A stretch of DNA of 41,543 nucleotides from a virus, in IMG/VR virus record IMGVR_UViG_3300046533_001145, positions 1 to 41,543 of that record. One strand, 5' to 3'. Position 1 is the first letter of the stretch. Each line of letters begins with the position of its first letter. The notes under the pieces were generated by a model. It was not told the DNA's origin, did no database searches, and saw only the letters and a program-made list of their open reading frames with translations. The position numbers and the translations under genes are program-made. Below are positions 1,975 to 40,402 of the stretch, piece after piece.

Positions 1975-2868
1975 TTACGCGGGCACCGCCTCGGTCGTGG
2001 TGACGGCGAGGGCATCTTCCACCCTCGCCGCGATCTTGTCGATGGTGGTCAAGTCCTCGCGGAGCGTCGCGAGGTCGTCGCGGGCGTTCCATCCGGCGAT
2101 GTAGGGGACGGCCTCGCCCGAGGTGTCGAAGCCCATCGCCTCGAGGGCGACGTGCGCTGCAGCCTCAACGATCACCTCGGCGCGCTCGCGCCCGTAGTTC
2201 TCATAGCCGATCCCCTGCGCGTGGCAGAGCTCGTGCGTCAGAACCCGCACCTGCTGATCGACGGCGGCCGAGGAGTCGACCACGATGTGCCGCTGCTCGG
2301 CGTCGCACCATCCGCCCTCGGGGCGGTCTGAGAGGTCGCGGTACTCGACCGTGTACTCGAGCTCGCCGGCGAGACCCTCGAGCCGCTCGAGCAGCTCGCC
2401 GTGGTCGGCGGTCTCGATGGTCGAGCTCTCAAGTTCGGCGATGGGCTCGCCGTCGGTCTGGGAGACATCGAAGACCGACACGACCTTGAAGAAGATGCGC
2501 GGGCGATCCGACTCCTCGGTCTCGCGCTCGTCGCCGTCGACAACTTCGGTCTTCGGCTTGACCTTGATCGGGGCGAAGATGCGAAGGCCGGTCGAGCCCT
2601 TCTTCACCGAGCGGTTGAGCTTCTTCCAAGTGTGGAAGCCGGCGACGCGGGTCGCGGACTCGGCGACGGGCTCGCCGTCGACCGTCGGCACCTGGCAGGC
2701 GATGAGGAGCTGATTCGTAATCGAGTAGTTGTGGAAGAGGGACCGCGCCCGGGCCCAACGGCGGAAGCCGTCGGTGCTCATCAGCTCGCGGGTGGCTGCC
2801 TCGAGGCGCTCGACCTGCTCGGCGCGCCGCTCCTCTGCCGTCTGCTTGCTCTTCGTCGTGGTGCTCAT
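1975..2868 (-). CDS. ArdC-like antirestriction protein with HExxH metallopeptidase-type domain
   Basis: 297 residues. The N-terminal half matches the ArdC N-terminal ssDNA-binding domain: FHNYSITNQLLIACQ (about 45-59) and VAGFHTWKKLNRSVKKGSTG (about 75-94). The C-terminal half carries THELCHAQGIGY with the zinc motif HELCH at 212-216 and a later glutamate helix (EVIVEAAAHV, 231-240) as probable third-ligand region. ArdC proteins of plasmids and phages protect incoming DNA from type I and II restriction, and this order of domains is the ArdC layout. It is the first gene of the leftward block, behind the best sigma70-type promoter in the window, which fits expression immediately on DNA entry. 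An internal acidic insertion (about 105-125) is unusual. Confidence 0.85.
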   Translation of the reverse strand: MSTTTKSKQTAEERRAEQVERLEAATRELMSTDGFRRWARARSLFHNYSITNQLLIACQVPTVDGEPVAESATRVAGFHTWKKLNRSVKKGSTGLRIFAPIKVKPKTEVVDGDERETEESDRPRIFFKVVSVFDVSQTDGEPIAELESSTIETADHGELLERLEGLAGELEYTVEYRDLSDRPEGGWCDAEQRHIVVDSSAAVDQQVRVLTHELCHAQGIGYENYGRERAEVIVEAAAHVALEAMGFDTSGEAVPYIAGWNARDDLATLREDLTTIDKIAARVEDALAVTTTEAVPA

Positions 2869-7208: not shown

Positions 7209-7486
7209 CCCGCTTCCGCGACGAACGGCCACGCCCGCGCTCGGTCTTCACGGCGAGCATCGTCCCGCTACCCGACGACCTGGCGGACTTCCTCAAGGGC
7301 GCGGCGAGCATGGCCGCGTCCGAACGGGCCGAGGAAATCGAGAAGCGCATCCTCGAGGGGGAGAACCGCATCGACGTGCCGAGCTTCGGCGGGCACCATC
7401 GGATCGTCTACGTGATCCCGAGGTGGTGGGCGCATCCCGTCCGCCGGTGGCGGATCGCTCGAGCCCGGCGGCGGTATCGGCGATGA
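7205..7486 (+). CDS. Hypothetical basic protein
   Basis: 93 residues with ATG overlapping the previous stop. Central helix (LADFLKGAASMAASERAEEI) precedes a strand-rich HRIVYVIPRWW and a strongly basic tail (PVRRWRIARARRRYRR). The tail suggests nucleic-acid or membrane-surface contact, but no family is recognised. Confidence 0.65.
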   Translation: MTRFRDERPRPRSVFTASIVPLPDDLADFLKGAASMAASERAEEIEKRILEGENRIDVPSFGGHHRIVYVIPRWWAHPVRRWRIARARRRYRR

Positions 7487-7695
7487 GGTGCGCCCGCGAC
7501 TCGGACTGGTGCGACGGTCGGCTCTGCACCGAACGGGGCATCGACTGCTCTCGAGCTGATGCCGCGCAGGACATCGCCGAAGCGGAGCTCGAGCGGCAGC
7601 GAGGGCGGACGCCGCACCGCCACTTCCCGCCCGGACCGAAGCAGCTCAACCCGAAACCTACGGCGAGCGTCCCATTGCGGGACGACCCGGCATGA
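7483..7695 (+). CDS. Hypothetical short Cys-rich protein
   Basis: 70 residues. The N-terminus has four cysteines (MRCARDSDWCDGRLCTERGI, then DC) that could form a small metal or disulfide knuckle, followed by a charged helix and a Pro-rich end. Coupled to both neighbours by ATGA overlaps. Confidence 0.6.
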   Translation: MRCARDSDWCDGRLCTERGIDCSRADAAQDIAEAELERQRGRTPHRHFPPGPKQLNPKPTASVPLRDDPA

Positions 7696-8069
7696 CCGAG
7701 GAGGGACCGCCGCAGCTCACCATCGGCGGCGGCGAGGTGCCGAGCTCGAGGGCGAACGCGACCTCCTCGGCCGGCCGCTACCGCGATGCGCACCTGACCG
7801 AATCGCAGCGGGTGATCCTCGAGACCATCCGGCGCGAGGGCAGCATCCGCTCGGTGGAGGCGGGGAACATCGTCCACGCCCGCCGCACACCGCCCTGCTA
7901 CGGCGGGCGGGCCGGCGCCGGCGAGCACAAGGGACCGGGGACGGCCGCGCGGATCGGCTGCTGCGGCTACGCCGCAACGGACGGCCTCTCGGCGATGAAG
8001 AAGCTCGAGAAGCGCGGGCTCGTGAAGTGGGACCGGCCGGGCCGATGGGTAGCGCACACGCCCGACTAG
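7692..8069 (+). CDS. Winged-helix-like protein
   Basis: 125 residues. SQRVILETIRREGSIRSVEA (about 37-56) and AMKKLEKRGLVKWDRPGRWV (about 101-120) look like the first and recognition/wing elements of a winged-helix fold, separated by a Cys/Gly-rich insertion (PPCYGG.., CCGYAATDG) that may bind metal. A DNA-binding regulator or adaptor is plausible. It is the last gene of the 6059-8069 run. Confidence 0.65.
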   Translation: MTEEGPPQLTIGGGEVPSSRANATSSAGRYRDAHLTESQRVILETIRREGSIRSVEAGNIVHARRTPPCYGGRAGAGEHKGPGTAARIGCCGYAATDGLSAMKKLEKRGLVKWDRPGRWVAHTPD

Positions 8070-8080
8070 GTGTTACCCTC
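8069..8080 (+). promoter_or_regulatory. GGTGTTACCCT promoter-like motif
   Basis: GGTGTTACC (8069-8077) continues as TGTTACCCT, a TGN-TANNNT extended -10. It overlaps the stop region of the previous gene and precedes ACACCACGACTAGGAGGCACCACG and the ATG at 8112. No -35 is apparent. Confidence 0.5.
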
Positions 8081-8111
8081 TCGCGCACACCACGACTAGG
8101 AGGCACCACGA

Positions 8112-8315
8112 ATGGAGCGAATGACCGTCGGCGAGCTCATCGAGCTTCTGTCCGAGCAACCGTCCGACGCCTACCTCAACGCCGAAGTGGTAAGCGAGGG
8201 CCAGTACGGCTTCGACATCCGCTTCCGGCAGCCGGGGCAGACCCTCTCGCTCGGCGACGACGAGCCGGTGATCCTGGCGCTCAGCGATGCCGCCGGCAAC
8301 CCGCTGCCGCTATGA
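8112..8315 (+). CDS. Hypothetical small acidic protein
   Basis: 67 residues behind AGGAGG and CACCACGA. The pattern MTVGELIELLSEQPSDAYLN is a common opening of small phage proteins ('mkvgeLielLkelpqda.v'), followed by VVSEGQYGFDIRF and DEPVILAL strands. Function unknown. First gene of the third accessory operon (8112-10391), all of whose members overlap or abut. Confidence 0.7.
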   Translation: MERMTVGELIELLSEQPSDAYLNAEVVSEGQYGFDIRFRQPGQTLSLGDDEPVILALSDAAGNPLPL

Positions 8316-12418: not shown

Positions 12419-12427
12419 GAACCAGCA

Positions 12428-12459
12428 CGGCCCGGTCGTCGGGAGAAACGACCGGGCCG
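12428..12459 (+). terminator. Strong hairpin closing the 10632-12418 operon
   Basis: A perfect 12-bp inverted repeat, CGGCCCGGTCGT (12428-12439) and ACGACCGGGCCG (12448-12459), with loop CGGGAGAA, begins ten bases after a stop. No long T-tract follows. It insulates the adjoining origin-like region from upstream transcription. Confidence 0.75.
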
Positions 12460-12690
12460 CTCGAGCTCAATGGAACGACAGGCATCCTAGCTTCTGTCTT
12501 ATCGAGTAGAGGTAGTACCTGTGGATTTGTACGGGTGGACCCGTACACCGCTGCAAATCGCCGCCTTTTCGCCTGTTGAAACCCCTGTGGAAATTATGGA
12601 TAACTTCTGCCGGCGCCCCGGCCGCCGAGAGAAATCCTCCATATCCACACGCCTTCCACACTCGCCCCTGTGGATAACGCATCGGTCCGC
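12460..12690. other. Probable origin of replication: cluster of DnaA-box-like sites
   Basis: This is the largest non-coding stretch (12419-12744) and locally AT-rich. DnaA-box-like nonamers are TGTGGATTT (12520-12528), TGTGGAAAT (12586-12594), TATGGATAA (12595-12603), TGTGGATAT (reverse, 12641-12649), TGTGGAAGG (reverse, 12652-12660) and TGTGGATAA (12669-12677). The last is a perfect bacterial DnaA box. Six sites in 158 bp on both strands, beside the AAATTATGGATAACTT segment that could unwind, are what a DnaA-dependent origin looks like. With no recognised replication enzyme in the genome, initiation by host DnaA is a reasonable inference. Confidence 0.65.
12528..12547. promoter_or_regulatory. 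Perfect 20-bp palindrome next to the DnaA sites
   Basis: TGTACGGGTGGACCCGTACA has two perfect 9-bp arms around GG. It abuts the first DnaA-like box. It is probably a dimeric-protein operator controlling replication or the neighbouring transcript. Its GTAC half-sites lie 14 bp apart, the same spacing as alternate GTAC units at 10398-10422. Confidence 0.6.
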
Positions 12691-12695
12691 ACCCG

Positions 12696-12705
12696 GGTGT
12701 AGGGT
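12696..12705 (+). promoter_or_regulatory. Promoter-like GGTGTAGGGT
   Basis: A TANNNT-type -10 (TAGGGT) within GGTGTAGGGT, just after the origin-like region. It is followed by CCCACGACGAAGGAGGAACCACG and the ATG at 12745. Confidence 0.4.
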
Positions 12706-12744
12706 CGCGCGGTCAGCTTGACCCACGACGAAGGAGGAACCACG

Positions 12745-13152
12745 ATGAGCGAGACTGCACGCGACGAGGACCGCAAACCCGAGGAGGGTGGCGGTGGTGG
12801 TGGCGACGACTCGCCGACCAAGCTCTTCGCCGCGTGGCTGCAGGAGCAGCGCGAGGGTCTGCTCCACGGCGAACTGACCGACGCCCTGGCCGAGGTCTCG
12901 GCGGCGGTGATCGACCTCAACAAAGGCGGGACGGTCGAGCTCAAGCTCAAGATCAACCCGGCCGGGAAAGGTCAGCGCGCGGTCTTCGTCACCGACGAGG
13001 TCAAGGCGAAACCGCCCGTCGACAAGCCCTCGATGATGTTCTTCGCGGACGGCAAGGGCAACCTCACCCGCCGCGATCCAAACCAAACGGCGCTCCCGCT
13101 CAAGGACGTGTCCCGTCCGCCGGCGCGAGACCTGCCACCACGAAAGGACTAG
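12745..13152 (+). CDS. Hypothetical protein partnered with DUF2303
   Basis: 135 residues with a strong AAGGAGG Shine-Dalgarno. After an acidic Gly-rich start come LFAAWLQEQREGLLHGELTD and ALAEVSAAVIDLNKGGTVEL, then KLKINPAGKGQRAVFVTDEV (strands). The C-terminus is disordered. The pattern 'dl..el..al.e..eav..tgK.g.l.l.l.i.p..' is typical of a small phage protein found beside DUF2303 proteins, which is the arrangement here (six bases to the next gene). Function unknown. Confidence 0.7.
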   Translation: MSETARDEDRKPEEGGGGGGDDSPTKLFAAWLQEQREGLLHGELTDALAEVSAAVIDLNKGGTVELKLKINPAGKGQRAVFVTDEVKAKPPVDKPSMMFFADGKGNLTRRDPNQTALPLKDVSRPPARDLPPRKD

Positions 13153-13158
13153 ACGACG

Positions 13159-14055
13159 ATGTCTGAGCAGCACGAGGAGTCCAGCATTCACGAGTTCAAG
13201 GCCGAGCTCGGCCAGATCGGGGGCGGCGGCAGCGCCGCCGTTATCGAGACCGCGCAGCAGGCCGTCGAGCCGCGCGAGCTCGACACCGCCAAGGTGTACG
13301 CGGTCCGCACCGCCGACGGCGGGCTCGCGGTCATGAACCTCGAGGGCGCCCGCGAGGCGCCCGACCGCCCGCGCGGCACCTATCGGCCGGCGACGGTCGC
13401 CTCCTTCCTCGAGTACGTGAAGGAGTGGGCCGCGTCCGGCACGACGGTGTGGGTCCATCCGACCGACGCGAAGGTCGTCGCCGTGCTGGACGACCACGAA
13501 AACGCGGACACGCCGGGGTGGCGCGAGCACACCGTCCGGCTCGAGTTGATCCCCACGCCCGAGTGGCTCTTCTGGAAAGAGCACGACGGGCAGCTCATGG
13601 ATCAGCAGAGCTTCGCCGAGAAGATCGAGGACGGCCTCTCCGACGTGGTCGACCCCGACGGCGCGAAGATGCTCGAAATCGCGCAGTCGATCCAGACCAC
13701 GACCGATGTCGCCTTCCACTCGGGCATCGACCTCTCGAGCGGCGAGGCGAAGTTCCGCTACGACGAGACCGTCGAGGCGAAAGCCGGCGAGAAGGGCGAC
13801 CTGGTCGTCCCGCAGGTCTTCGAGCTCGGCATCCCGCCCTACGTCGGCGAGGACGCCTACCGCATCGAGGCGCGCTTCCGCTTCCGCAACCGGGGTGGGC
13901 ACCTGCAGCTCGGCTACAAGCTGCAGCAGCCTGAGCTCGCCGAGCGGGCGGTCCTCGAGGGGATCGGCGCACGGATCGGCGAGGAGCTCGGCGACCGCTC
14001 GCCGGTCTACCTCGGCGCCCCGGCCGACGGCTCGGTCCTCGCGGGCGTCCGCTAA
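13159..14055 (+). CDS. DUF2303 (YfdQ-like) family protein
   Basis: 298 residues. Diagnostic blocks are VVAVLDDHENADTPGWREHT (about 105-124), EWLFWKEHDGQLMDQQSFAE and FIED-like KIEDGLSDVVDPDGAKMLEI, then a beta-rich C-terminal half (VPQVFELGIPPYVGEDAYRI). These match the DUF2303/YfdQ family found in many phages and prophages near recombination or replication genes; its biochemical role is not established. Here it lies between the proposed origin and a hairpin with a parS-like core, which fits a DNA-metabolism setting. Confidence 0.85.
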   Translation: MSEQHEESSIHEFKAELGQIGGGGSAAVIETAQQAVEPRELDTAKVYAVRTADGGLAVMNLEGAREAPDRPRGTYRPATVASFLEYVKEWAASGTTVWVHPTDAKVVAVLDDHENADTPGWREHTVRLELIPTPEWLFWKEHDGQLMDQQSFAEKIEDGLSDVVDPDGAKMLEIAQSIQTTTDVAFHSGIDLSSGEAKFRYDETVEAKAGEKGDLVVPQVFELGIPPYVGEDAYRIEARFRFRNRGGHLQLGYKLQQPELAERAVLEGIGARIGEELGDRSPVYLGAPADGSVLAGVR

Positions 14056-14605: not shown

Positions 14606-14705
14606 GCAGGGGCACGAGGAACTCCTCGAGGCGCTCGCCGCGCCGCTCCAACGCAGCGCGCTCGTGCGTCAGAAGGCGGCGGCCCGCATCTACTCGCCGT
14701 CATAG
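14397..14705 (+). CDS. Zinc-finger-type hypothetical protein
   Basis: 102 residues. A basic start (PRRAKKRRAREAAARVAA) precedes CPVVGCPNVGMCRHD ... YLCGRCD, a five-cysteine plus histidine cluster that could hold one or two zincs. A C-terminal helix (QGHEELLEALAAPLQRSALV) follows. Nucleic-acid binding is possible. The start is uncertain (no clear ribosome site, stop three codons upstream); see the overlapping frame at 14321. Confidence 0.65.
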   Translation: MPRRAKKRRAREAAARVAAPDTAMQTPGAPGECPVVGCPNVGMCRHDTPSGPIYLCGRCDIVARRNLRDKQGHEELLEALAAPLQRSALVRQKAAARIYSPS

Positions 14706-14775
14706 CGCCTGACGCACGCGCTACGGTTCCGCGCATCGAGGGCGAGCCGCGAGAATCGACCAGGGCGACGGCGGC

Positions 14776-15420
14776 GTGATCGTCACCGCCCATCAGCCGG
14801 GCTACTTACCAGGAGTAAGTGTGGTCTCCAAGATCGCCCGGGCCGACGCCGTCGTGTGGCTTGACGATGTCCGCTTCACGACCCCGGGCTTCGTCAATCG
14901 CAACCAGCTTCCCGACGGGACGTGGCTCACCGTCCCGGTCGAGCGCCGCGACCACCTGACGCCGATCCGGGAAGTGCTGATCGCCGAGGACGGATGGGCG
15001 CCGGCGCACACGAAGATCATCGGCGAGCACTACCGCGACGCCCCGCACTTCGACGCTTCGATCTTCCTGCCGCTCGGCGGCCCGCTCTCCTACGAGGGCT
15101 CGCCGCTGCTCGAGCTCAACCTCGCCTTGACGGAGAGGCTCTTCGCTGGCCTCGGCCTCTCGCCCCGGCAGTACCGGCAGTCCGAACACCGCTCGCCGTC
15201 GGGCTCGCTCTCGACCAAGCTCATCCACCTGGTCAAGTCCGTCGGCGGCTCGGCCTACCTCTCGGGCCCGACCGACGCGCTCGACCCCGAGGTCTTCGCC
15301 GAGGCCGACCTCGAGCTCCTCTACTTCCGCTACGCCGGCGACAACCCGAGCGTGATCGACCCGCTCTTCCGCGCCGGGACTCTGCCATCGGAACCGAAGC
15401 AGGAGGTCAACGTCGCATGA
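14776..15420 (+). CDS. WbqC-like family protein
   Basis: 214 residues, GTG start. Near the N-terminus AHQPGYLPGVSVVSKIARAD and VVWLDDVRFTTPGFVNRNQL are the WbqC signatures (HQP..P....KI..aD..v.LDdvqf....fvNRn). Later SLSTKLIHLVKSVGGSAYLS and GP..AL, then FAEADLELLYFRY, complete the family's C-terminal pattern. WbqC-like proteins occur in O-antigen, glycan and other modification clusters; their reaction is not settled. The gene overlaps the portal by four bases (ATGA), so it is translated with the head genes. A role in modifying virion protein, DNA or host glycan is conjecture. Confidence 0.85.
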   Translation: MIVTAHQPGYLPGVSVVSKIARADAVVWLDDVRFTTPGFVNRNQLPDGTWLTVPVERRDHLTPIREVLIAEDGWAPAHTKIIGEHYRDAPHFDASIFLPLGGPLSYEGSPLLELNLALTERLFAGLGLSPRQYRQSEHRSPSGSLSTKLIHLVKSVGGSAYLSGPTDALDPEVFAEADLELLYFRYAGDNPSVIDPLFRAGTLPSEPKQEVNVA

Positions 15421-17531
15421 AGTCGGTCCTCTACGAGGCGTTGAAGGCCGGACCGCGCGGCGCGTCGGCCGACCGGGAATGGGGAATGACCGGCGTCTAC
15501 GGCGAGCGCTACGAGCCCGAATCGCGGCTCGAGTTCGTGGACGCCTACTTCAACCGCGTGTGGGTGCATCGCTGCATCGACCTGATTTCGAGCTCGGCCA
15601 CGCAGGTGCCGATGCAGGTGAAAGTCGGCGGCGAGTGGGTCGAAGAGCACCCGCTGCTCGACCTGCTGCGGCGCCCCTCGCCCCGCGACCCCGCCCTGAT
15701 GTTCTTCGAGTGGTCGATCAAGTGGGCCGAGGTGATCGGCGAATGGTATTGGGAGATCGTCCCCTCTCGAGGCGGCGACATCGCGCAGCTCTTCCCGCTG
15801 CGCGGGCAGCACATGCGGATCATCCCCGGCGAGGAGGGCGCCATCGCCGGCTACAGCTATGACCCGAACGTCAACGGTGTCGACACGGTCGAGTTCGATG
15901 CGCTCGACCCCTTCAAGCCGAAGGTCAAAGGCAGCGGCGAGAAGACCATCGTCGTCGCCGGCCGCTACGCGAATCCCAAGGACGACCTCTACGGGATGTC
16001 GCCCCTGCGGGCCGCCAAAGACGACATCATCAGCGAGTACTACGGGGTCCGATACGACCACCGCTTCTTCCGCAACTCGGCCCGTCCCGACCTCGTGATC
16101 GGCTTCAAGGGCAAGCTCGACGCCGAGGAGCGCCGCCTCAACAAGGAGGAGTGGCAGGAGTTCAAAGGCATGGACAACGCGCACCGCGCGGCGGTGATGT
16201 CCGGCGAGCCCGACATCACCCTGCTGACTCAGAACTCGAAGGATGTCGAGTACCTCGATGGCCGCCGCCTCGCCCGCGAGGGGCAATGCGCCGCCTTCGG
16301 TGTGCCGCCGGTCCTGGTCGGCGATATGACCCGCGCCACCTACTCGAACTTCGAGAATGCCGAGCCGATCTTCTGGAAAATCACGATGCTGCCGAAGCTC
16401 GGCTTCTTCGCCACGTGGACGAACTTCACCCTCGTGCCCTTCTATCCCGATGTCGAGGAGTTCCGCTTCGACACGAGCCGCGTCCCCGCCCTCGCCCGCG
16501 CCGAAGGATGGCGCTCGGACCGGGCCCGGGGCGAGATAGCCGGCGGGATCAAAACGCCGAACGAGGCGCGCGAAGAGCTCGGCGAGGAGCGCATCGAGGA
16601 TGAGGAGGGCGCCGATCTTCTGTGGCTGCCGACCAAAGTCCGGCCGATCAGCGACCTCGAGCAGGCGGCGCCCGAACCGCAGCTCAACCCGATACCGGCC
16701 GGCGTCCCGGCCGGCGAAGAGAAAGGCGTCCGCCCCGGCCACCGGCTCGAATCGTGGGCGCTCAGCGCCGAGAAGGGGACCGTCGCCAATTGGCTGCGGC
16801 AGGGTCTCGAGGCGAAGCTCCGCTTCTCCGAGCGCGGCAAGAACGAGATAGCCGGTCACTTCGCCGAGCAGCGCGACGCCGTCCTCGCCATCGTGGAGGG
16901 GCAGGAAAAGAGCGCCGAGCTCGAGCGCCTGCTGCGCGAGTACGGATGGGCCGACGACGCCGCCAACTTCCATCAGATCGTGGAGGCGATGCAGGCCGGG
17001 CTCGCCCTCGCCTCCTTCAAGATCACCGCCGGCGCCGTCGACCAGGAGGCGAGCGAGTCGCTCATCAGCCGGATGCTCGCGCAGCTCGCCAACCGCCCCG
17101 AGGGAATCCAGTCGGTCTCGGGCCGGGTCAAGGAGGAGGTGCTCGAGGAGGTCCGCGAAGGGATCGCCCACGGCCTCACCTATCGGCAGATCGCCGAGGG
17201 CGGCACCTTCACCTCGGCCACGGCCGGCGCCGAGGACGTGACGATCAAGGGCATCCAAGGCGTCTACGAGGAGTACACCGGCTGGCAGGCCGAGCGGATC
17301 GCCCGCACCGAGGCCGCCGTCACCTTCAACCTTTCGAGCGCCGGCCTGATGCGCGAGGCCGGCGTCGGTTACGTCGACATCTCAGACGGCGACGAAGACG
17401 AGGAGTGCGCGCTCGCCAACGGCTCGCGCTGGTCCCTCGAGGAATACGAAGCCAACCCGATCAGCCATCCGAATTGCACGCGGATCGGGCTTCCCGTAAT
17501 CGAAGTGCCTACATCAGGAGGATCAGCATGA
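15417..17531 (+). CDS. Portal protein fused to MuF-like minor head domain
   Basis: 704 residues. Residues about 1-400 are an HK97/SPP1-like portal: AYFNRVWVHRCIDLISSSAT, then DDLYGMSPLRAAKDDI, FRNSARPDLVIGFKGK and FGVPPVLVGDMTRATYSNFE. A Pro-rich hinge near 430 leads to a helical C-terminal region with YEEYTGWQAERIARTEAAVT, then FNLSSAGLMREAG and ISHPNCTRIGLPV. These are hallmarks of the phage Mu gpF-like (MuF) minor head domain. Portals form the dodecameric DNA gate, and MuF proteins are normally a separate neighbouring gene. Here they are one polypeptide with no stop between. Confidence 0.92.
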   Translation: MKSVLYEALKAGPRGASADREWGMTGVYGERYEPESRLEFVDAYFNRVWVHRCIDLISSSATQVPMQVKVGGEWVEEHPLLDLLRRPSPRDPALMFFEWSIKWAEVIGEWYWEIVPSRGGDIAQLFPLRGQHMRIIPGEEGAIAGYSYDPNVNGVDTVEFDALDPFKPKVKGSGEKTIVVAGRYANPKDDLYGMSPLRAAKDDIISEYYGVRYDHRFFRNSARPDLVIGFKGKLDAEERRLNKEEWQEFKGMDNAHRAAVMSGEPDITLLTQNSKDVEYLDGRRLAREGQCAAFGVPPVLVGDMTRATYSNFENAEPIFWKITMLPKLGFFATWTNFTLVPFYPDVEEFRFDTSRVPALARAEGWRSDRARGEIAGGIKTPNEAREELGEERIEDEEGADLLWLPTKVRPISDLEQAAPEPQLNPIPAGVPAGEEKGVRPGHRLESWALSAEKGTVANWLRQGLEAKLRFSERGKNEIAGHFAEQRDAVLAIVEGQEKSAELERLLREYGWADDAANFHQIVEAMQAGLALASFKITAGAVDQEASESLISRMLAQLANRPEGIQSVSGRVKEEVLEEVREGIAHGLTYRQIAEGGTFTSATAGAEDVTIKGIQGVYEEYTGWQAERIARTEAAVTFNLSSAGLMREAGVGYVDISDGDEDEECALANGSRWSLEEYEANPISHPNCTRIGLPVIEVPTSGGSA

Positions 17532-36832: not shown

Positions 36833-37260
36833 GCCGGGAACCCGTGCGGCCATCGCATCCGAACGGCGACGACCACCTCGTCGCCGAGGCGGGCGAGCCC
36901 GGTCACGATCTTGTAGGAGGAGCGCGAGAAGGCGACATCGACGGCGGTGTGCAGGCTGACTTTGACCATATGCAGGAGGAAGACGACCTCCTTCGGTCCC
37001 TCGAGCTGCTCGACCACGTCCTCGGCGCTGATCGCCGTCAGCCACGGGACCGGCTCGCCGTCGGGCGGCACCGCCTGGTCGGGGTCGTCTTCGGGCCGGT
37101 GTTCCTCGATGCCTCTCGGGACCGCTTTCGGCGGCTCCCACTTCGTGTCGATCACGAAGGCGCCGTAGTCGTGCTCGGATCGGTAGCTCATCGACACGAT
37201 CCCGGGCAGCTCGTCGGACATCGAGCGCAGGACGTGTTCGGTGTCGACGTAGCGGATCAC
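36829..37260 (-). CDS. Hypothetical protein
   Basis: 143 residues, GTG start overlapping the methyltransferase stop (GTGA) and ATGA overlap with the next gene. A middle segment WLTAISAEDVVEQLEGPKEV and VFLLHMVKVSLHTAVDVAFS is mixed alpha/beta, with RWPHGF at the end. No family recognised. The tight coupling to the methyltransferase and winged-helix genes suggests co-expression only. Confidence 0.65.
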   Translation of the reverse strand: MIRYVDTEHVLRSMSDELPGIVSMSYRSEHDYGAFVIDTKWEPPKAVPRGIEEHRPEDDPDQAVPPDGEPVPWLTAISAEDVVEQLEGPKEVVFLLHMVKVSLHTAVDVAFSRSSYKIVTGLARLGDEVVVAVRMRWPHGFPA

Positions 37261-38099
37261 GAGGAGACCAATCCGAAGAGCGCCCCGTGAGGCTCGAAGT
37301 TCATCCACACGGCCTCGGGTGCGGTGTGCTCGCCGTCGCCGTCGGCGCGCGGCGTCACCCGCCGTTGCACGTAGTCGGCTCGCTTCCACCCGGCGCCCTC
37401 GAGGCGCTCGACCTCGGCGCAGGGGTAGCCGCTCAGTAGGACATTGGCTTGTTCGAGGTCGAGCAGCGCGTCGACCAGGTCGCCCCATAGGTCGGGGTGA
37501 TTGTCGAAGCGATAGCCGCGCGTGTTCTCATCGTTGCGGCGGTGCTCGCCGGTGTAGGGCGGGTCGCAGTAGATCAGGCACTCGGGCAAATCCCATCGGC
37601 TAAGCATCGGGATCGCGTCCGCATTCTCGAGGGCCACACCGCGCAGGCGTGTCGCCGCGGCGACGATCTTCTCGGGCACGTTCTCCCACGTGCCGGGCTG
37701 CCACCGCCCTCGGCGGTCGGCGCGCAACGAAGGAGGCGACCAGGAATCCCCCCCCCTCGAGAAGGATTGGTCGATGGTCACGATCAGGCGCCGTGCCCGC
37801 TCGACGCCGCCGAGCTCCTCATCGAGGCCGGCGCGGCACTCGTGGAACTCGTCGCGCGAGTAGGGCGTCAGCTCGAGGGCGCGGGCGAGCTCGAGCGGTT
37901 CGTCGCGCACCACGTGCCAGAAGTTCGAGACCGCCCCATCGAGGTCATTGAGGGTCTCGCGCTGGACACGGGGCTTGTGGAAGAACACCGCCGCGCCGCC
38001 GGCGAAAGGCTCGAGGTAGACCTGATGCGAGGGCATCAGCGCGACGATGTCGGGCGCCATGCGCTGCTTGCCGCCGTAGTAGGTCAGCGGCGTCCTCAC
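37257..38099 (-). CDS. D12-class N6-adenine DNA methyltransferase (Dam-like)
   Basis: 280 residues, GTG start at 38099 overlapping the previous stop. TYYGGKQRMAPDIVALMP (6-23) and YLEPFAGGAAVFF (28-40) form the SAM-binding motifs X and I, and LIYCDPPYTGE contains catalytic DPPY (179-182). This is the D12/Dam order, methylating adenine in DNA. It probably protects phage DNA from restriction together with the ArdC-like protein. A C9 run on the plus strand (37748-37756, G9 in the gene) lies at codons about 115-117, a possible phase-variation tract. Confidence 0.9.
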   Translation of the reverse strand: MRTPLTYYGGKQRMAPDIVALMPSHQVYLEPFAGGAAVFFHKPRVQRETLNDLDGAVSNFWHVVRDEPLELARALELTPYSRDEFHECRAGLDEELGGVERARRLIVTIDQSFSRGGDSWSPPSLRADRRGRWQPGTWENVPEKIVAAATRLRGVALENADAIPMLSRWDLPECLIYCDPPYTGEHRRNDENTRGYRFDNHPDLWGDLVDALLDLEQANVLLSGYPCAEVERLEGAGWKRADYVQRRVTPRADGDGEHTAPEAVWMNFEPHGALFGLVSS

Positions 38100-38356
38100 T
38101 CGGCGAGCTCCCCGTCGGTGCCGCAGTAGGAGCAGGAGATAGAGGCGTCCCATTCGCTCGGCCGGTGAAAGGTCGCGTTGTAGTGGAAGGCCATCCACCG
38201 ATGCGGGATCACCGTCGGTTCCTCGGGGCAGTCTTCGAACTCGTAGGGCTCGTCGCCGGCGACACGTTCGGTCCCCTTGCAGCGGCACTCGCCGGTGTGC
38301 GTGACCTCGCGCCCCTTGCAGTCCTCGGCCGGGCACTCGACCTCAACCCATGCCAT
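38096..38356 (-). CDS. Zinc-binding hypothetical protein
   Basis: 86 residues. Seven cysteines in groups CPAEDCKG, ECRCKG, DCPE and CSYCGTD suggest two zinc knuckles around a beta core. The start ATG at 38356 overlaps the previous gene. It is translationally coupled to the methyltransferase and may be a partner or an independent nucleic-acid-binding protein; no evidence decides. Confidence 0.62.
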   Translation of the reverse strand: MAWVEVECPAEDCKGREVTHTGECRCKGTERVAGDEPYEFEDCPEEPTVIPHRWMAFHYNATFHRPSEWDASISCSYCGTDGELAE

Positions 38357-39074: not shown

Positions 39075-39332
39075 TTAGCCCGTCGGCACGACCGTGAGGT
39101 GCGGCGTCGCTTTCATGCCCGGCGCCGGGATCGACCACCACACGTCGATGATCTTGTAGGTGCCATTGCGCAGCGCCCGGGGATGCTCTTCGCCTTCGCC
39201 CTCCTCGGGTGAGAAGAAGAACGACTCGCCGATGCACGGCGTCCGGTCGGGCAGGAAGGCCATCAGCGGGAAGGCGTCCCGCTGATCGGGTTCATCGACC
39301 GCGTGCGCGAGGCGGACTTCGACGCTAATCAC
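39075..39332 (-). CDS. Hypothetical small protein
   Basis: 85 residues, GTG start overlapping the preceding stop. Beta-type sequence: MAFLPDRTPCIGESFFFSPE, then GTYKIIDVWWSIPAPGMKAT and PHLTVVPTG. Coupled to the recombination-like gene upstream. Function unknown. Confidence 0.65.
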   Translation of the reverse strand: MISVEVRLAHAVDEPDQRDAFPLMAFLPDRTPCIGESFFFSPEEGEGEEHPRALRNGTYKIIDVWWSIPAPGMKATPHLTVVPTG

Positions 39333-40402
39333 GATTTCTTCTCCCGTTTCTTGCCGGCCTTCTCGCGGGCCTGGCGCTCGCGCTTCTCCTCGGCCGACTC
39401 ACCGGACTCGGCCTGCGCTTTCGCGTCGCCCTCGGCCTCCTCGTCGGTGGCGCGCTCGTCGTCGTGGATCGCTTTCAAGCGGCGTATCGGGATCATTGCC
39501 GCCTCGGCCGCCGGCCCGTACAGACCGCCGCCGAACGCCGCCTTTATCTCGCCCCACGCGAGTTTCGCTTCCTCGGGCGGCAGGATGTACTCGAGCGCGG
39601 CGCGCAGCGTCCCCATCTGCTCCTCGTCGGCGGGCGCGAGGCCGGGTGCCTCGGTGCCGCCCTCGGCCTCCTCGTCCAAGTCCTGCGTGAAGATCGCCGA
39701 GGCGCCGGTGACGGCGAGCACGGCGTCGACGCGGGCCCGCTTCTCGGCCATCTTGACCACGGTGTTCCACGTGTCGGGCAGGTCGGGGTTGACCACCTCG
39801 CCGACGGACTGGTCGAGGATCACCGGGTCGCCGTCCTCGTACTTCGCACCGCAGCCGCCCTTTTTGTAGAAGCAGAGCCACCCGCCGCCGTACTCCTCCT
39901 TGCCCTTGATGATCGCCTCCTCGCCGCAGGCCGGGCAGCGGCGGGACTGCTGGCGCTTGCCGTACTTCTTCTCGCGGGTTGTGCAGAGACCCTCGCCGAA
40001 GCCGATGCGTGCGCCGCTCTCGATGTCGTAGACGGTGGCGGCGGTCTCGACCGTCAGGTGATCGCCCGGGCCCCACGTCTTCGTGCTGCGCGGCTGTACG
40101 TCGAGCTTGAAGAGGACGGATAGCTTCTCCGACCCCGGCTTGAAGAGCGCCGGCTTGTCGGTGCCGGGCACCTTGCCGTAGTCGACGCCCTCCTTCATCG
40201 CCGAGTCCATCGCCTCTTCGATCACCTCGAGGCGCTGACCGAGCTCGCCGGCGCTGACCTGCGGGGTGACGCTGACGGCTGCCGGTGGCGGCGCGGCGGG
40301 CTCGAGGGCGCGAGAGGTGCGGACGCCGTCGGGCGCGGCCGGCTCTTCTATCGCCTCGCCGTCGAGTACCTCCTCGTCGTGGTGGTGCTGCTCATCGCTC
40401 AT
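39329..40402 (-). CDS. Putative ssDNA-annealing/binding-type recombination protein with zinc finger
   Basis: 357 residues. The core contains YGKVPGTDKPALFKPGSEKL (75-94), CPACGEEAI ... CFYKKGGCGAKY (Cys 156, 159, 177, 184, one zinc) and DTWNTVVKMAEKRARVDAVL, then AVTGASAIFTQDLDE (210-244). The last is a motif of phage single-strand annealing proteins (ERF/Sak-like 'K.A.kRA.v.avl...G.sd.fTqd'). The acidic C-terminus resembles those of ssDNA-binding proteins. A role in DNA recombination is thus the best guess, but it is inferred. Start ATG follows ACGACGAAGGAGACACCACG. Confidence 0.6.
   Translation of the reverse strand: MSDEQHHHDEEVLDGEAIEEPAAPDGVRTSRALEPAAPPPAAVSVTPQVSAGELGQRLEVIEEAMDSAMKEGVDYGKVPGTDKPALFKPGSEKLSVLFKLDVQPRSTKTWGPGDHLTVETAATVYDIESGARIGFGEGLCTTREKKYGKRQQSRRCPACGEEAIIKGKEEYGGGWLCFYKKGGCGAKYEDGDPVILDQSVGEVVNPDLPDTWNTVVKMAEKRARVDAVLAVTGASAIFTQDLDEEAEGGTEAPGLAPADEEQMGTLRAALEYILPPEEAKLAWGEIKAAFGGGLYGPAAEAAMIPIRRLKAIHDDERATDEEAEGDAKAQAESGESAEEKRERQAREKAGKKREKKS

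Follow-up and report, generated by a model that had tools for sequence, protein, structure and literature searches.

A candidate host-DnaA-dependent replication origin of chromosomal type in a phage without recognised replication genes

Introduction

The origins of pSC101, P1 oriR and phage lambda use DnaA together with an initiator of their own (Rep, RepA or O), and phages are, to our knowledge, usually assumed to supply an initiator or a helicase loader of their own as a minimum. For bacterial chromosomes, a basal unwinding system (BUS) of oriC has been described (Richardson 2019, PMC6669920; Pelliciari 2021, PMC8287927), in which a DnaA box with no more than two mismatches lies in the correct orientation at most 16 bp from the triplets (PMC8287927); the published rule further calls for at least three consecutive NAN DnaA-trios. 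Among phages, a putative origin comprising DnaA boxes and an A+T-rich region was predicted by Ori-Finder in Pseudomonas phage vB_PseuGesM_254 (PMC11512268). This resembles the locus described here, but it is a software prediction for one phage, and a DnaA-trio core was not found in the text of that report (PMC11512268). A partial literature search, mostly of titles and abstracts, found nothing that pairs DnaA-trios with a phage origin.

The present study concerns IMG/VR virus record IMGVR_UViG_3300046533_001145, the whole 41,543 nucleotides of which are referred to as the window. Positions 12469-12705 probably represent a chromosome-type, host-DnaA-dependent replication origin, a reading to which a probability of roughly 0.8 is given. 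The locus resembles bacterial oriC in its cluster of TTATCCACA boxes, placed on both strands of a non-coding gap, and in a core of box, GC spacer and TAG-type triplets of the same order and orientation, with the A+T peak at this core. It differs in being carried by a phage, without dnaA or dnaN, in its size of about 230 bp, in an interrupted run of triplets (intact in two relatives), and in the number of boxes next to the triplets, of which a single one is recognisable, most oriCs having two in tandem. Like pSC101, P1 oriR and lambda, it belongs to an extrachromosomal replicon and combines DnaA boxes with an adjacent A+T-rich segment; however, those origins need Rep, RepA or O, whereas neither an initiator gene nor iterons were found in the window.

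Genome completeness and gene content

A direct terminal repeat of 127 bp indicates that the genome is complete, with a circular length of 41,416 bp, and the two ends of the window are contiguous in a relative, G001. Therefore, the missing replication genes are not an effect of a fragmentary sequence. A Pfam search of 75 open reading frames, picked so as to represent non-structural regions in several frames, revealed methyltransferase, HTH, Gp157, DUF2303 and DUF1508 families and no initiator, helicase, primase or polymerase, in agreement with the first-pass annotation, which had recognised none of these. The HTH_36, O-like phrog_391, DnaB_C and IstB/DnaC models had no match in the window, and no encoded Rep, O or DnaD-like initiator, such as a Rep-type origin would have, was recognised there. 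A divergent initiator among the uncharacterised genes is possible.

Several other genes were noticed. A DNA methyltransferase (37257-38336, minus strand) and an ArdC-like anti-restriction protein (1975-2868, minus strand) are encoded in the leftward, probably early operon, and the D12-class adenine methyltransferase family is represented among the reading frames. The product of the gene at 39329-40402 (minus strand), an early protein of 357 aa that contains a Cys-rich insert and has conserved counterparts in G001 and G005, is possibly a single-strand annealing protein; its structure predicted from three sequences had a pLDDT of 49, too low for use. The portal gene begins within a WbqC-like gene (14776-15420) that is conserved among all close relatives.

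A group of virus contigs of about 41 kb was found with profiles of the portal and of phrog_204. The box array described below occupies the corresponding position in four relatives of the window, namely G001 (with a near-identical partner, G002), G005, G006 and the fragment L022. Direct DNA comparison of the region with named phages gave chance-level matches only, a BLAST comparison of four actinobacterial genomes with the L022 origin gave noise, and a search for the host by portal profile found none among 84,980 genomes.

DnaA box cluster

Nonamers were scored as TTATCCACA-type boxes. The six DnaA-like nonamers reported by the first-pass annotation, one of them perfect, are present at 12520-12677 on both strands. 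Box 1, AAATCCACA (12520-12528, minus strand), has two mismatches and adjoins the triplet segment. It is followed by boxes 2 and 3, ATTTCCACA (12586-12594) and TTATCCATA (12595-12603), both on the minus strand, by the inverted boxes 4 and 5, ATATCCACA (12641-12649) and CCTTCCACA (12652-12660), both on the plus strand, and by the perfect box 6, TTATCCACA (12669-12677, minus strand), which is exact in G001, G005 and G006. A possible non-canonical box, CTGTTGAAA (TTTCAACA), lies at 12573-12581 on the plus strand and is conserved in G001.

The cluster is located in non-coding DNA and is well above chance. It had been claimed that five TGTGGA hexamers exceed expectation at this composition, and indeed five fall within about 155-160 bp, against a mean of 0.11 when the 285-bp region is dinucleotide-shuffled, none of the 5000 shuffles reaching five. 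For boxes with up to two mismatches, five were observed against 0.52 expected, and again 0 of 5000 shuffles reached this number. In the genome-wide box count proposed as a check, no other 160-bp stretch approached the density of the cluster. Direct-repeat iterons were not found beside the boxes, the repeats in the region being of the box type or short chance ones.

A multicopy phage with a box cluster would titrate DnaA, and a cluster so far above chance could be a sink of the datA kind, which binds up host DnaA and blocks host initiation while the phage replicates otherwise. Such a sink does not require the unwinding core described below, nor a position of that core at the border of the A+T peak, and genes for another mode of replication were not recognised; this explanation is regarded as very unlikely.

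Triplet core and its match to chromosomal oriC

The left edge of the putative origin consists of TAG-rich triplets followed by a short run of GC and a TGTGGA box, in the order and orientation of the BUS of bacterial oriC (PMC6669920, PMC8287927), for which the C. difficile trio sequence given in PMC7561715 offers a comparison. The triplet-repeat (DnaA-trio-like) segment GAGTAGAGGTAGTACC with its GC spacer occupies 12503-12519 on the plus strand (direct reading). Read 3'->5' from box 1, the triplets of the window are GAT GGA GAT GAG, an interrupted run, whereas the run is intact in G001 (GAT GAT GAT GAG) and G006 (GAT GAT GAG). Box 1 (AAATCCACA, 12520-12528) has two mismatches and lies at the distance and in the orientation that the BUS rule prescribes, and at least three consecutive NAN trios are present in G001 and G006 but not in the window, L022 or G005. 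Since its trio run is broken, the window is classed as presumably working like a BUS and not as a strict member.

The A+T-rich segment noted beside the boxes in the first-pass annotation is also real: positions 12469-12528 contain 55% A+T, as against 32% for the genome, and rank among its most A+T-rich 60-bp intervals. This candidate DNA-unwinding element adjoins the triplets, the A+T peak coinciding exactly with the core.

Position 12509-12525 (plus strand) is the sole place in the genome that matches the oriC core 17-mer GTAGTAGGGCCTGTGGA with no more than four mismatches. The 17-mer is exact in G006 and has one mismatch in G001, two in L022, and four each in the window and G005; its best match is at the origin site in the window, G001, G006 and L022, while in G005 this site ties with two other places, each of four mismatches. 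No match with up to four mismatches was found in G003 or G007, two phages of the group without the cluster. The probability that a match with up to four mismatches occurs by chance within the 285-bp region is 0.8%.

A search of 84,980 bacterial and archaeal genomes for the exact GTAGTAGGGCCTGTGGA, as it stands in G006, gave at least 119 loci, where about 30 would be expected by chance (257 Gb, both strands). Among the loci listed, 112 of 119 carry a DnaA and/or DnaN reading frame, and at each of the five that were inspected the site lies between the two genes. The listed loci include many from Streptomyces, as well as Firmicutes, Acidobacteria, cyanobacteria, Chloroflexi and Bifidobacterium. 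Among 80 of the at least 119 loci, tandem boxes follow rightward in most and A+T-rich DNA lies leftward in many. The core is thus shared with dnaA-dnaN intergenic regions, the 17-mer being that of a relative from which the window departs by four mismatches. The first-pass annotation had compared initiation with that of plasmids; this comparison is not retained, since no Rep gene was recognised and the match to the dnaA-dnaN intergenic region makes the locus look like a chromosomal oriC instead. The cumulative GC skew, which had also been proposed as a check, gave no support, its sign remaining unchanged at the site, unlike in a bidirectional chromosome.

Conservation of the array in related phages

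In the window and all four relatives that carry it, the array has a common order (-> / -> -> / <- <- / ->), namely a left-edge box, a rightward pair or triple, an inverted pair and a final rightward box. The regions of these origin-bearing phages contain five to seven TGTGGA hexamers, against about 0.1 expected. In the five-way alignment the left edge GTAG..C-TGT is invariant, and four of the five sequences have an intact box 1. The boxes of G001 have been kept or improved, including two perfect TTATCCACA and one TTGTCCACA, while the spacers have diverged.

The 20-bp palindrome reported near the boxes, TGTACGGGTGGACCCGTACA, is present at 12528-12547 as a single copy and may be an operator, although it is absent from the relatives. 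It was also considered as one of an operator family; this was rejected, no further copies being found in the genome. That the palindrome adjoins box 1, and that the HTH gene at 349-963 is present in G001, G005 and G006 but not in G003, G007 and G009, would suit a different explanation, in which the sites serve a DNA-binding protein of the phage (the winged-helix product of 349-963 or an unrecognised initiator) as operators or as an origin and resemble DnaA boxes by convergence. However, the relatives keep or improve the DnaA consensus while spacers and palindrome diverge, and the 349-963 protein looks ArsR-like rather than Rep-like, making this highly improbable.

The phages of the group without the cluster show the reciprocal pattern. 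G003 and G007 encode an O-like initiator (phrog_391, E-values 1.7e-15 and 3.6e-28) that matches phage proteins annotated for replication initiation; behind it lies a partner gene with 70% identity between the two. They belong to the same phage group as the window, with related structural genes and a similar genome size, but the phrog_391 initiator and the conserved partner gene are theirs and absent from the window. G009 has an IstB/DnaC-like loader and no box cluster. No O-like initiator, partner gene or DnaC-like loader was found in G000, G001, G005 or G006, the full genomes that have the cluster. On the TerL and portal trees the origin-bearing phages form one clade; therefore, the exchange of an origin for an initiator represents approximately one event and not four, and a count of four against three independent genomes as a measure of exclusion was rejected. 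As a separate observation, G003 (L011) carries GTP cyclohydrolase I and QueC genes at 14618-16030, which suggests 7-deazaguanine DNA modification in this phage.

Flanking elements and the downstream operon

The array had been described as lying behind a strong terminator and ahead of a promoter. Upstream, a perfect 12-bp GC-rich hairpin at 12428-12459 (plus strand) is terminator-like and closes the upstream operon, but it lacks a T-run. For the promoter, neither a sigma-70 consensus nor a consensus -35 was found, whereas a -10-like element for the downstream operon, TAGGGT at 12700-12705 (plus strand), is conserved as TANNNT in 5/5 phages.

The operon begins with the phrog_204 gene (12745-13152, plus strand), which directly follows the array in all five origin-bearing phages, and continues with a DUF2303/YfdQ-family gene (phrog_210; 13159-14055, plus strand). 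The DUF2303 protein has a match (E 3.8e-11) in E. coli YfdQ, whose structure is solved; the model predicted for the DUF2303 protein has a pLDDT of 62. In G001 (L004), the DUF2303 gene (7431-8180) is inverted relative to the window, faces the end of the phrog_204 gene and has apparently lost its C-terminal part. In E. coli, yfdQ belongs to a prophage gene set that, when overexpressed, inhibits DnaA-dependent initiation at oriC; multicopy yfdQ plus yfdR plus yfdS or yfdT inhibits oriC initiation, and YfdR binds DnaA (PMC4776307). Because boxes lie just upstream, the phrog_204-DUF2303 operon may also respond to DnaA, and one might speculate that its products tilt DnaA from host to phage. Since a YfdQ relative is the one member of that set identified here, a role of DUF2303 in DnaA control is a lead and not a result.

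The position of the array directly upstream of this operon in every one of the five phages, the conserved TANNNT element, located 21 bp after the last box in three phages, and the tie of the YfdQ family to DnaA inhibition in E. coli (PMC4776307) could also be explained by a DnaA-regulated promoter, in which DnaA bound at 12586-12677 controls phrog_204-DUF2303 and senses the host cell cycle, no origin being involved. Nevertheless, such a promoter has no need for a core of triplets, GC run and box with an A+T peak 180 bp upstream, a core otherwise found beside dnaA/dnaN, and G009 keeps both genes without the box cluster and has the DnaC-like loader instead. This interpretation is therefore considered unlikely.

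Proposed mode of initiation

DnaA-dependent initiation, proposed in the first-pass annotation, is the best-supported reading of the locus, on account of the unique cluster, the conserved array, the oriC core and the lack of a recognised initiator, helicase or loader; it is further supported by the recognisable replication genes of the relatives without the cluster. These features suggest that the phage makes host DnaA start the copying of the viral genome. Host DnaA would bind the array at the perfect box (12669-12677), the inverted pair (12641-12660) and the boxes at 12586-12603, and from box 1 (12520-12528) a DnaA filament would extend over the GC spacer as far as the TAG-rich triplets, opening the A+T-rich segment to their left. 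Loading of the host helicase and firing of the origin would follow, host helicase, primase and polymerase then copying the circular 41.4-kb genome, so that under this proposal a phage initiator would be unneeded.

Occurrence of the core in other phages and significance

Virus contigs were scanned with the 17-mer and with a second pattern that includes a tandem box. About 20 distinct IMG/VR contigs (L151-L162 and L182-L190), ranging from 4 to 71 kb and of varied GC content, carry the core, and on the sequence of them examined neither dnaA nor dnaN was found. A terminase or portal gene is present in 6 of the 16 core-bearing contigs tested; L154, L160, L162 and L182, among others, may be chance matches. 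Lambda-type phages keep the origin inside the O-like initiation gene, and in L157 (9403-10125) the core with tandem boxes is located inside such an O-like replication initiation gene, which speaks for a role of the core as an origin and shows that one contig can contain both the core and a phage initiator. In gokushoviruses, (TAG)n-GGGGC-TGTGGAAAAG is found alongside numerous TGTTGAAA repeats. In L175 (KT264798.1, 3540-3790), for example, (TAG)5-GGGGC-TGTGGAAAAG is followed by about ten TGTTGAAA repeats in the gap after VP4, and the oriC-like core also occurs in KT264804.1 and other Microviridae/gokushovirus records. A partial literature search found no paper that joins gokushoviruses with the DnaA box.

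The presence of an oriC-like element in a clade of soil phages whose sister phages have an O-like initiator, together with the same core in unrelated tailed phages and gokushoviruses, makes it somewhat probable that phages repeatedly carry chromosome-type origins at which host DnaA alone starts replication, replacing the phage initiator. Because the core recurs in other phage contigs, the general question of how often phages depend on DnaA alone becomes testable. If the chromosome-like origin is the sole replication determinant of the phage, viral replication would be tied to the DnaA cycle of the host and the phage origin would compete directly with oriC. The locus would then also be a natural minimal oriC, suited to studying how little DNA is needed by DnaA.
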